Part shown: positions 51,245-55,409 of the stretch, piece after piece | How positions within the stretch are numbered: the stretch's first letter is position 1 | How the letters are laid out: every line of letters begins with the position of its first letter | Assembly: GCA_013298865.1 (NCBI GenBank) | Contig: JAAFJL010000006.1 | Span: forward strand, 1-64,000 | Reading direction: 5' to 3' | Length of the DNA: 64,000 nucleotides | DNA from: Cytophagales bacterium | Lineage (GTDB): Bacteria > Bacteroidota > Bacteroidia > Cytophagales > Spirosomataceae | Translations under genes and position numbers: made by a program | Notes under the pieces: model-generated | What the model was told of the DNA's origin: nothing | The model's input: the letters and a program-made list of their open reading frames with translations, nothing else | The model's database searches: none

Positions 51245-51274
51245 AAAGCCCGACCGAAAAGTTGGGCTTTTTTT
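51245..51274 (+). terminator. Terminator of the first short unit
   Basis: AAAGCCCGAC (51245-51254) pairs with GTTGGGCTTT (51261-51270) with one G-T pair, followed by T. Confidence 0.75.
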
Positions 51275-51496: not shown

Positions 51497-51521
51497 ATCA
51501 TTCTTAAATCGAATGTGCAAG

Positions 51522-51559
51522 AAGCCCGACCTCAGCCAAAAGCGAAGTTGGGCTTTTTT
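51522..51559 (+). terminator. Terminator of the second short unit
   Basis: AAGCCCGAC (51522-51530) and GTTGGGCTT (51547-51555) form a stem identical to that of the first unit, with a longer loop and a T-run. It lies 35 bp before the phosphoesterase start. Confidence 0.7.
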
Positions 51560-51593
51560 ATTTACTTCTAAATTTAGTATCAACAACAAAAAC

Positions 51594-52292
51594 ATGAAAA
51601 CAATATGGTTTACGTCCGATAACCACTTCGGACACAAAAATATCATCAAATTCAGTAATCGACCATTTGCAACAATGGAAGAAATGGATGAAGAAATGAT
51701 AAAACGCTGGAATGAAAAAGTACAGCCACAAGACGAAATTTATCATTTGGGAGACGTTGGTTTGTGTAGTTCGGGCAGATTGAAAGAAATTTTGAATCAA
51801 TTGAATGGGAAAATTTACCTCGTCAGGGGAAATCACGAAAGTGCAGCCGAAGCCTGTAAAGAACGGTTTGAATGGATTAAGGATTATTACAAACTCAAAA
51901 TCCAAGATGCTGATTTTCAGGGAGGTGAACAACAAATAATTCTGATGCACTACGCCATGAGAGTCTGGGACAAAAGCCATTGGGGAACATACCAATTGTA
52001 CGGTCATAGCCACGGAGAACTACCTGATGAAAGTGATTTATTGTCGATTGATGTAGGGGTTGATTGTCATAATTTTTATCCTATTTCTTGGGAAGAAGTA
52101 AAAGCAATTATGAAACAAAAAACATGGACTCCGCCTTTTCAGAAATTTAAACTGGAGGTAGCCCGAATGGACGAGGACGCAGTCTTGAAAACTGTCAGTC
52201 GGGAAACCCGATTTGTAGGTTCGATTCCTACTGCCTCCGCAAATAGCCCTTTAGCCCAATTGGCAGAGGCACTTGTCTTAGAAACAAGGTAG
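51594..52292 (+). CDS. Calcineurin-like metallophosphoesterase, frame running into tRNA genes
   Basis: From ATG 51594 the protein has the metallophosphatase motifs SDNHFGHKN, GDVGL, GNHES, a His in ILMHYAMRVW, and GHSHGEL, as in small phage- and bacterium-encoded phosphoesterases. The folded domain ends about residue 185 (WTPPFQKFKLE). No stop codon follows: the frame continues through the whole tRNA-Ser and into the next tRNA, ending only at TAG 52290-52292. Processing of the tRNA by RNase P would leave a non-stop mRNA. The normal end of the protein is therefore unclear. Confidence 0.85.
   Translation: MKTIWFTSDNHFGHKNIIKFSNRPFATMEEMDEEMIKRWNEKVQPQDEIYHLGDVGLCSSGRLKEILNQLNGKIYLVRGNHESAAEACKERFEWIKDYYKLKIQDADFQGGEQQIILMHYAMRVWDKSHWGTYQLYGHSHGELPDESDLLSIDVGVDCHNFYPISWEEVKAIMKQKTWTPPFQKFKLEVARMDEDAVLKTVSRETRFVGSIPTASANSPLAQLAEALVLETR
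52154..52239 (+). tRNA. tRNA-Ser(UGA)
   Basis: The acceptor GGAGGTA pairs perfectly with TGCCTCC, allowing one G-U. The anticodon stem GCAGT/ACTGT encloses CTTGAAA (anticodon TGA). A proper long variable arm (TCGGG AAA CCCGA) and a T arm GTAGG-TTCGATT-CCTAC are present, with G73. CCA is not encoded in full (GCA follows). Confidence 0.92.
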
Positions 52293-52318
52293 TGCGAGTT
52301 CGAATCTCGCAAGGGTGA
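52245..52318 (+). tRNA. tRNA-Leu-like (UAG anticodon), short variable loop
   Basis: The anticodon stem CTTGT/ACAAG is perfect with loop CTTAGAA (anticodon TAG, codon CUA). The T arm GCGAG-TTCGAAT-CTCGC is perfect. The D arm (GCCCAATTGGCAGAGGC) resembles tRNA-Leu with a 3-bp stem. The variable loop is only GTAGT, not the long arm of bacterial tRNA-Leu. The acceptor has one A-G mismatch at the end pair. A73 is present. Starts 5 bp after tRNA-Ser. Confidence 0.8.
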
Positions 52319-52325
52319 CAAAAAT

Positions 52326-52400
52326 GGTCGTGTATCCCAATCGGCAGAGGAAAATGGCTTAAACCCATTTCATGTGTGAGTTCGAATCTCACGACGACTA
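52326..52400 (+). tRNA. tRNA-Leu-like (UAA anticodon), short variable loop
   Basis: The anticodon stem AATGG/CCATT is perfect with loop CTTAAAC (anticodon TAA, codon UUA). The T arm is GTGAG-TTCGAAT-CTCAC. The D arm TCCCAATCGGCAGAGGA has the same 3-bp plan as the neighbour. The acceptor GGTCGTG with GACGACT has one mismatch (7-66). The variable loop TCATGT is short. Confidence 0.78.
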
Positions 52401-52411
52401 CAATTTTACAT

Positions 52412-52485
52412 AGGCATATACTCCAATTGGCAGAGAGCGTTGTTTCAAAAACAATGAAGTGTTGGTTCGAATCCGACTATGCTTA
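52412..52485 (+). tRNA. tRNA-Leu-like (CAA anticodon), short variable loop
   Basis: The acceptor AGGCATA/TATGCTT pairs fully (one G-U). The anticodon stem GTTGT/ACAAT has loop TTCAAAA (anticodon CAA, codon UUG). The T arm is GTTGG-TTCGAAT-CCGAC. The variable loop GAAGT is short. Same D-arm pattern (CTCCAATTGGCAGAGAG) as the two preceding tRNAs, so the three are probably paralogues. Confidence 0.82.
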
Positions 52486-52499
52486 CAATTTGTTTAAAT

Positions 52500-52573
52500 T
52501 GCTGAGTAGTTCAAAGGAAGAACATACCGCTACGGACGGTAAGGTAGAGGTTCGAGTCCTCTCTTGGTAACCA
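52500..52573 (+). tRNA. tRNA-Arg(ACG), CCA encoded
   Basis: The acceptor TGCTGAG/CTTGGTA pairs with several G-U. D arm GTTC/GAAC, anticodon stem TACCG/CGGTA with loop CTACGGA (anticodon ACG), and T arm AGAGG-TTCGAGT-CCTCT follow, then A73 and an encoded CCA, unlike its neighbours. The wobble A would normally be deaminated to inosine. Confidence 0.85.
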
Positions 52574-52595
52574 GTAATTTCTTTTTTTGGTAAAA

Positions 52596-52749
52596 GACCT
52601 CGTGAGAGGTCAAACATGATTAGCCATACGTGAAACGTATGGAATAGAGAAATGAGCGAATTCAACCCCGAATGGGGTTGAAGCCACAGATTAATTCATT
52701 TTTCCCCGAGTTTCACTCAGGGCTAATCAAATTTAATCCTTTCAGGATT
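52596..52749. repeat. Cluster of five hairpins after the tRNA array
   Basis: In order: GACCTC/GAGGTC (52596-52611), CCATACGT/ACGTATGG (52624-52642), TTCAACCCC/GGGGTTGAA (52661-52682), an imperfect CCCGAG/CTCAGGG (about 52704-52722) and AATCC/GGATT (about 52735-52749). The array is non-coding and resembles composite intergenic repeats of Bacteroidota. It may protect or end the tRNA transcript. Confidence 0.6.
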
Positions 52750-52826
52750 TCAAAAAAGAAATTGCTGCTTGGCAACTATTTCTTATCTAAATCTTTAATA
52801 ATCAAACACTTAAATTCAATACTAAA

Positions 52827-53150
52827 ATGAGAAATGACGTAATTAAGAATTTCCTTGTCAATTCTGAAGAAACAGGAAGACATATTGTAGTCTCGATAAG
52901 GACTGGACGCAAGTATTTTATTGAACCGATTGGCGATGGCAGAATGGCAGATTGGGGAAGCTATAATCCAAGCACAGGGGACATAGAAAATAAAAAAGGA
53001 GCTGGAAAATACACGGGTTCTGTTACGTCTGAAAACTCTGTGATTATTGAAAAAAACGGTTTCAGTAATATTCATTTCGTTGAAAAAGGTAGTCCTTATT
53101 CTGTCATTGATAAAATTGATGCAGACTATCCAACCATAAGTAGGAGTTAA
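52827..53150 (+). CDS. Orphan hypothetical protein (107 residues)
   Basis: The ORF starts at ATG 52827 (MRNDVIKNFLVNSEETGRHI) and encodes a small beta-rich protein (VVSIRTGRKYFIEPIGDGRM, then DWGSYNPSTGDIENKKGAGKY). No membrane segment and no motif that I recognise. It lies between the hairpin cluster and the endonuclease V gene on the same strand, so it is probably part of the same accessory block. Confidence 0.55.
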   Translation: MRNDVIKNFLVNSEETGRHIVVSIRTGRKYFIEPIGDGRMADWGSYNPSTGDIENKKGAGKYTGSVTSENSVIIEKNGFSNIHFVEKGSPYSVIDKIDADYPTISRS

Positions 53151-53226: not shown

Positions 53227-53727
53227 ATGATACTCGCCATAGATGTATTTTACGAACAGAATAAAGCAAAGATTATAGGCATATTTTTCAATGAATGGGC
53301 GGACGAAAAGTTCGCCCAAAAAATAGAATTGTTTCGTCATGATATTGCTGAATACGAACCAGGAGCTTTCTACAAGCGAGAATTACCCTGTATTTTGGAT
53401 GTCCTCGAACAAACCAATGTAGCAAATATCCAGTGTATCATTGTAGATGGATATGTCTATTTGGATGATGACAAAAAGTTGGGTTTGGGTGGTTATTTAT
53501 ACGATGCCATCAATCAGAAAGTTCCAGTTATTGGTGTTGCAAAAAATCATTTTGCCAACAATACAAAATACGTGATTGAGGTTCTCAGGGGTGAAAGCCA
53601 GAAGCCCTTGTATGTCACTGCCGTAGGTACAGATTTGGAAGAAGCCGCAAATAATGTCAGGAATATGCACGGTGCATTCAGATTTCCAACATTATTGAAG
53701 GAATTGGATAATCTTACAAAGCAATAA
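53227..53727 (+). CDS. Short endonuclease V-like protein
   Basis: The 166-residue protein has the endonuclease V core: AIDVFYE near the N-terminus (catalytic Asp), IVDGYVYLDDDKKLGLGGYL (the DG...LG segment) and PVIGVAKNHF (the GVAK lysine). It is about 55 residues shorter than the E. coli enzyme and lacks the usual N-terminal helices. Endonuclease V nicks DNA or RNA next to inosine. It stands between the tRNA array and the interrupted tRNA-His. Confidence 0.85.
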   Translation: MILAIDVFYEQNKAKIIGIFFNEWADEKFAQKIELFRHDIAEYEPGAFYKRELPCILDVLEQTNVANIQCIIVDGYVYLDDDKKLGLGGYLYDAINQKVPVIGVAKNHFANNTKYVIEVLRGESQKPLYVTAVGTDLEEAANNVRNMHGAFRFPTLLKELDNLTKQ

Positions 53728-54827: not shown

Positions 54828-55409
54828 ATGGAAGAAAAATATCAAGGGAAATACCGAATCCCTTCTACACGCCTTCAAAATTGGGATTATGGCTCTGATG
54901 GAGCATATTTTATAACTATTTGTTGTAAAAATAGGCTTCATTTTTTCGGAGAATGTAACGATGCAAAAATGAAATTATCTACTGAAGGAGCTATTGCACA
55001 AGGTTTTTGGTATGAAATTCCAAAACATTTCCCTTTTGTGGCATTAGGAGAATTTATCGTTATGCCGAATCATATTCACGGCATTTTGATTTTGGATAAG
55101 GAACGGGATTATATGAACGATGTAGAGACAAGGCATTGCCTTGTCTCTACCAATACAACAGAAAGAACATTTGGTCAAAATCGTTTTCAAAACCAAGGAA
55201 AAGATACTGTCTCATCAATTATTGGTTCATACAAATCTGTCTGTACGAAACATATCCGAAAGACATTTCCAGCAATAGAATTTGGATGGCAAACTCGTTT
55301 TTGGGATAATATCATTAGAGATAGCCAGTCATTTGATAATATCAGTCAGTATATCATCAACAATCCTGCAACATGGAACAAGGACAAATTTTTTAATAAT
55401 GATACGTAG
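54828..55409 (+). CDS. REP-associated tyrosine transposase (RAYT, Y1-type)
   Basis: The 193-residue protein has the HUH signature in FIVMPNHIHGILILD and the family opening GAYFITICCKNRLHFFGE. The C-terminal region has YKSVCTKHIRK and WQTRFWDNIIRDSQSFDN. The catalytic Tyr would be in the C-terminal helix (YIINNPATW). A REP palindrome lies inside the reading frame at 55122-55150, and another begins two bases after the stop codon. RAYTs mobilise REP sequences. It is a full-length, apparently intact gene. Confidence 0.9.
   Translation: MEEKYQGKYRIPSTRLQNWDYGSDGAYFITICCKNRLHFFGECNDAKMKLSTEGAIAQGFWYEIPKHFPFVALGEFIVMPNHIHGILILDKERDYMNDVETRHCLVSTNTTERTFGQNRFQNQGKDTVSSIIGSYKSVCTKHIRKTFPAIEFGWQTRFWDNIIRDSQSFDNISQYIINNPATWNKDKFFNNDT
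55122..55150. repeat. REP palindrome inside the RAYT gene
   Basis: GTAGAGACAAGGCA pairs with TGCCTTGTCTCTAC with a single unpaired centre base. The 29-bp palindrome encodes residues VETRHCLVST of the transposase. Confidence 0.9.

Follow-up and report, generated by a model that had tools for sequence, protein, structure and literature searches.

Armless tRNA-Leu genes in a chromosomal tRNA array of a Cytophagales bacterium and their relatives in phages and RNA-repair-linked arrays

Results

The window analyzed in this study, a 64,000-nucleotide stretch of the genome of a Cytophagales bacterium (family Spirosomataceae; assembly size 5.69 Mb), contains a compact tRNA array at 52154-52573 on the + strand. 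ARAGORN and the Rfam model RF00005 agreed on five genes, in the order Ser-UGA, Leu-UAG, Leu-UAA, Leu-CAA, and Arg-ACG, separated by gaps of 4-13 nt. The features of the locus are listed below.

51245..51270, + strand: terminator-like hairpin upstream of the phosphoesterase gene, found by consensus scan only
51513..52292, + strand: calcineurin-like metallophosphoesterase (PF00149, PHROG 547), motifs intact, likely start at 51594
52154..52240, + strand: tRNA-Ser(UGA), long variable arm (19 nt), G73
52245..52319, + strand: tRNA-Leu(UAG), variable loop GTAGT (5 nt), A73, A15-U48, CCA not encoded
52326..52401, + strand: tRNA-Leu(UAA), variable loop TCATGT (6 nt), A73, A15-U48, G7.G66 mismatch
52412..52486, + strand: tRNA-Leu(CAA), variable loop GAAGT (5 nt), A73, A15-U48
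52500..52573, + strand: tRNA-Arg(ACG), CCA encoded, 3'-most gene of the array
52827..53150, + strand: win107, a 107-aa protein with no assigned fold, found in six other regions at 39-75% identity as a recurrent gene of tRNA/RNA-repair islands
53227..53727, + strand: Endonuclease V-like protein (PF04493, E 3.9e-9), with a close homolog inside the array of genome G027

The three leucine genes were 75-76 nt long and had a D stem of 3 bp, with the D loop AATTGGCAGAG in two of them and AATCGGCAGAG in Leu-UAA. They lacked the long variable arm of type II tRNAs, although this arm is typical of bacterial tRNA-Leu. A preliminary description of the sequence had reported five tRNAs, three of them with Leu anticodons, variable loops of 5-6 nt, A73, and a 3-bp D stem, and both programs confirmed this description; neither folded a long arm in the three leucine tRNAs. 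The RF00005 scores of the five genes ranged from 29.9 to 56.9 bits against a cut-off of 29, with tRNA-Ser(UGA) barely above it. A degenerate pattern for armless tRNA-Leu matched the window twice, compared with 0.00 matches expected from shuffled sequences, in which none was found. The acceptor stems carried some flaws, namely an A1.G72 mismatch in Leu-UAG, the G7.G66 mismatch in Leu-UAA, and three G.U pairs in tRNA-Arg, and the anticodon stems, T stems, T loops, and tertiary motifs of the array were all intact.

The close relatives of the phosphoesterase were nearly all from Bacteroidota. Its homologs stop near the motif WTPPF (at about 52139), whereas the frame in the window has no stop before the array and continues for about 48 codons beyond the homologs' end, overlapping tRNA-Ser and Leu-UAG; the array may have replaced the 3' end of the gene. 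The hairpin at 51245..51270 is a possible left border of the transcription unit. Searches of win107 against Pfam and PADLOC returned no match, and its AlphaFold model was of low confidence (pLDDT only 66); PADLOC likewise returned no match among the island proteins tested. One neighboring protein bears a Por secretion tail, and the weak PHROG matches of a PKD-repeat neighbor were to Ig-like domains. Neither integrase, terminase, and portal genes nor other structural or replication genes of a prophage were detected among ten flanking proteins tested, and these neighbors indicate that the locus is part of the bacterial chromosome and not of an intact prophage. RNA ligase, RtcB, PrfH, and TROVE genes were not found beside the array within the window. 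Mobile sequences were observed downstream. An interspersed MITE- or BIME-like element of about 190 nt at 52575-52775, bounded by 15-nt terminal inverted repeats and containing internal hairpins, was inserted 2 nt past tRNA-Arg and had about 35 near-full copies in the genome (85-97% identity), and a Y1-type (IS200-like) transposase gene was located at 54828-55409.

The leucine identity of the armless genes was examined against the determinants of E. coli LeuRS, which comprise A73, A15-U48, G18G19, A20a, and D-loop/T-loop contacts, and tRNA-Leu variants without the long arm remain active with this enzyme (PMC9976931). All three genes in the window carried A73, A14, A15-U48, G18G19, A20a, and the U54-A58 core, with the GG of the D loop at the spacing of tRNA-Leu. 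Because the determinants outside the arm are retained, the sequences suggest that these tRNAs are likely to be charged with leucine. A14, A15, A20a, and U48 were built into the search pattern, and finding them conserved in pattern-selected sets therefore cannot count as evidence of identity; A73, which was not imposed, occurred in 164/165 armless tRNA-Leu of a pattern-chosen phage set versus 521/929 other type I tRNAs of that set. More than half of all armless tRNA-Leu were nearest to long-armed tRNA-Leu, although the latter made up 4% of the comparison set. The three genes in the window were nearest to other armless tRNA-Leu; outside this class, their nearest relatives included Lys, Glu, Ser, and Trp tRNAs and were not clearly long-armed tRNA-Leu. 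A tree of leucine tRNAs built from 66 columns required 22 changes between armed and armless states, and its resolution was too poor for losses to be counted.

Canonical type II tRNAs for Leu-CAA, GAG, UAA, and UAG, whose arms measure 13-17 nt, were present in the same genome, and the leucine tRNAs of the window are extra copies because their anticodons are also found among these long-armed genes. Two further non-canonical arrays were detected. The one on C292 comprises Pro, Lys, Cys, Phe, Ser-GCU, and Tyr and is followed immediately by a gene for an ATP-dependent RNA ligase (PF21189 and PF09414); the one on C122 comprises Gln, Glu, and Asp. Canonical tRNAs with the same anticodon were found in the genome for 13 of the 14 anticodons of the three arrays; a canonical tRNA-Asp was not found in it, perhaps owing to an incomplete assembly. 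Positions 32, 37, or 38 differed from the canonical copy in 8 of the 13 accessory tRNAs that could be compared. In the accessory Leu-UAG of the window and the Pro-UGG of C292, A37 replaces the G37 of the canonical copies, which is the site of TrmD methylation. A37 in place of G37 was considered as a rule for armless Leu-UAG and rejected, as it failed across phages, where position 37 showed no clear split between armless and long-armed tRNAs. The genome's RtcB gene lies on a contig (C94) without tRNAs, and TROVE was absent when the genome was searched.

A BLAST search retrieved similar 75-nt tRNA-Leu genes from hundreds of phage records. Lactobacillus phage Bacchae (Harbinvirus Bacchae) carries Ser-UGA, Leu-UAG, Gln, Leu-UAA, and Leu-CAA, with the Ser and Leu genes in the order seen in the window. 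In viral contigs chosen by their tRNA-Asn, a sample that is hence blind to leucine, 14/56 Leu tRNAs were armless, compared with 0/54 for Ser and 0/29 for Tyr (Fisher p ~1e-6). Armless tRNA-Leu matching the strict pattern occurred in 7/395 genomes of the phylum and 14/391 of the order. All eight Leu tRNAs found on the Nostoc plasmids of TCL26-01, PCC 7524, and HK-01 were armless; these plasmids surfaced in the plasmid BLAST only at an E-value of 10, with no match at the default. We regard their arrays as related to the Anabaena trn operon because they are large and, in two of the three plasmids, adjoin an HNH endonuclease gene. Monoglobus, Tsukamurella, and Pseudomonas plasmids from the same search were set aside, since two of the arrays lacked Leu and the third was a lone armless tRNA-Leu beside an integrase. 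Three loci (L258, L259, and L260, in genomes G518, G098, and G083) held Leu-dominated arrays that mixed armless and long-armed tRNAs of different anticodons, and no repair genes were found nearby. The idea, raised in the preliminary description, that the genes belong to a wider armless family is borne out by these phage, Nostoc, and Bacteroidota arrays, and armless tRNA-Leu is a widespread class that is apparently undescribed.

The relatives of the phosphoesterase gene in Flavobacterium and Bizionia, two of whose Bizionia loci are near duplicates, had tRNA arrays within a few kb, and the Leu tRNAs of these arrays were armless in 12/12 cases. In varying mixes, the loci held genes for an RtcB-family ligase, the peptide release factor PrfH, an RLIG1-like ligase, and an SPFH/band 7 protein, together with an exonuclease of the RNase T fold, an RNase H-like protein, and a nucleotidyltransferase whose match was weak. 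Across other Bacteroidota, repair genes were found within 10 kb of armless-Leu arrays in 8/20 regions versus 0/19 controls (p 0.003; 0.008 after the region that supplied the queries was dropped). The controls were taken elsewhere in the same genomes, had no tRNAs, and so were not matched for tRNA arrays, and the genomes are related to each other and are not independent samples. With the query set used, no repair gene was found in the other 12 of the 20 regions. TROVE was present in 19/396 genomes, and 11 of 18 regions chosen by this gene had tRNAs nearby; their Leu tRNAs were armless in 6/7 cases, and all Ser and Tyr tRNAs were long-armed. Two TROVE genes (L460 and L462, in genomes G1013 and G866) adjoined 28 and 23 tRNA genes, respectively, a near-complete second set. 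Taking together the Bacteroidota arrays chosen by a neighboring phosphoesterase or Ro60/TROVE gene, Leu was armless in 18/19.

Two genomes of the window's own family, G027 and G776, had regions combining armless Leu, Arg-ACG, win107, TROVE, SPFH, and RtcB, and the former additionally had the Endonuclease V homolog and a ligase. The window shares three recurrent neighbors with such islands, namely the phosphoesterase, win107, and the Endonuclease V-like gene, and for this reason its array looks like a dispersed piece of an RNA-repair tRNA island.

Discussion

We consider it probable that the array belongs to an accessory "backup" tRNA set distributed over at least three loci of this genome and related to both phage arrays and the repair-linked arrays of Bacteroidota. 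The best reading of the window array is a remnant of such an RNA-repair-linked set, of phage-like make-up. Anticodon nucleases or other RNA damage would deplete the normal tRNAs, and the extra copies, if expressed or induced under these conditions, would sustain translation and protect the cell while cut RNA is mended by the ligases and end-healing enzymes encoded in these islands. The armless tRNA-Leu would be leucylated, as LeuRS reads A73 and the D-loop/T-loop/15-48 core and not the arm; Ser and Tyr tRNAs would retain theirs because SerRS and TyrRS need it.

The closest functional parallel is the Anabaena trn operon, which stays silent until antibiotics that target translation induce it, contributes to survival, and is controlled by a repressor that also acts on rtcB and a slipin gene (PMC10272220). 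This operon, with 26 tRNA genes on plasmid delta in the TrcR regulon, likewise duplicates housekeeping tRNAs; its Nostoc relatives contain armless tRNA-Leu, as the window does, and its functional tie to rtcB and the slipin/SPFH gene (PMC10272220) recalls the repair genes near the Bacteroidota arrays. In contrast, it is one long operon on a cyanobacterial plasmid under the TrcR repressor, whereas the array in the window is a short one on a Bacteroidota chromosome. RNA-repair systems whose modules include RtcB, PrfH, ATP-dependent ligase, TROVE/Ro60, and SPFH are covered by a jumbo-phage survey (PMC7824862) and were reportedly described by Burroughs and Aravind in 2016. Such modules are recurrent neighbors of armless-Leu arrays in relatives, and an RNA ligase gene abuts the sister array in the same genome, but of the island genes, the phosphoesterase, win107, and the Endonuclease V-like gene alone are present in the window. 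Animal mitochondria also read tRNA-Leu without the long arm (PMC9976931); those, however, are organelle tRNAs with their own LeuRS, whereas the genes considered here are phage or bacterial and, in this genome, coexist with canonical long-armed copies.

The phage arrays of Harbinvirus Bacchae, Mycobacterium phage Faith1, and Vibrio phage KVP40 resemble the window in their clustering and in tRNA-Leu of about 75 nt with the same D arm, and it has been argued that jumbo phages counter the cleavage of tRNAs by the host with tRNAs, RNA ligases, and TROVE in combination (PMC7824862). The array could be a plain relic, a tRNA cassette left by a prophage or phage-like element, in which the arm was lost through phage genome economy and whose role is only a slight change in tRNA supply. 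The numerous phage homologs, the shared order of Ser-UGA, Leu-UAG, Leu-UAA, and Leu-CAA in Bacchae, the PHROG 547 match of the phosphoesterase, and the slight decay of the acceptor stems are consistent with this explanation. Unlike the phage arrays, however, the array lies in a bacterial chromosome, the ten surrounding proteins tested include no integrase, terminase, or portal, win107 and the Endonuclease V-like gene recur in chromosomal RNA-repair islands, and the anticodon stems, T stems, and tertiary motifs have stayed intact; we judge a plain relic fairly unlikely. The earlier suggestion of phage tRNAs is correct as to the close relatives of these genes; the locus, by its neighbors, is bacterial chromosome and not an intact prophage.

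It was also proposed that the genes form a dedicated set that escapes nucleases. Their duplication of canonical tRNAs and their grouping with RNA-repair arrays lend partial support to a dedicated set. Escape through loss of the arm, such that defense or toxin nucleases recognize long-armed tRNA-Leu and the armless ones survive, is a possible cause but, in our estimation, an unlikely one. Phage tRNAs have been proposed to evade nucleases via changes in the anticodon loop (PMC10264068), and the differences at positions 32, 37, or 38 in the accessory tRNAs fit this proposal; however, the bacterial anticodon nucleases discussed in that study cleave within the anticodon loop, no reading of the variable arm is described for them, and position 37 does not separate armless from long-armed tRNAs in phages. 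The loss is confined to Leu, with Ser and Tyr tRNAs keeping their arms. No special selection is needed for the loss, since LeuRS ignores the arm, whereas SerRS requires it and Tyr tRNAs have retained it; the best account is that the arm is not read by LeuRS. The excess of armless Leu in repair-linked arrays (18/19) over general phage arrays (14/56) leaves room for selection, but the genomes are related, kinship was not corrected for, and the enrichment may stem from shared ancestry. A broader proposal, that bacteria keep damage-resistant backup translation sets composed of near-complete tRNA arrays with RNA ligase, RtcB-PrfH, Ro60, and SPFH, of which armless Leu is the hallmark because nucleases attacking normal Leu tRNAs use the arm, is quite doubtful.

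Decay into pseudogenes would account for the A1.G72 and G7.G66 mismatches and the tRNA-Ser score just above the cut-off, but every T loop and anticodon stem is sound and the same core is preserved in three paralogs, making it improbable. It is highly improbable that the genes are recoding tRNAs of another isotype that gained Leu anticodons and would place a different amino acid at Leu codons, as the Lys, Glu, Ser, and Trp tRNAs among their nearest relatives outside the armless class might suggest, given A73, A15-U48, A20a, the Leu spacing of GG, and the proximity of most armless Leu to long-armed Leu.

There is precedent for accessory tRNA arrays, for phage tRNAs, and for RNA-repair systems. 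In our literature searches we came across no report of armless tRNA-Leu from phages or bacteria, although Burroughs and Aravind 2016 and Santamaria-Gomez 2021 may carry relevant remarks, and a 2008 phylogeny mentions briefly that charging functions of class II passed to class I structures (PMC2265525). The published rule that tRNA-Leu keeps its arm everywhere but in animal mitochondria needs revision. Because the Ser and Tyr tRNAs of the same arrays retain their arms, these arrays amount to a natural version of the arm deletion carried out in vitro in the literature on LeuRS identity. Armless tRNA-Leu is an easy sequence marker for locating such arrays, and the link to RNA repair makes it testable that some bacteria, and not only phages, store spare tRNAs against tRNA destruction.
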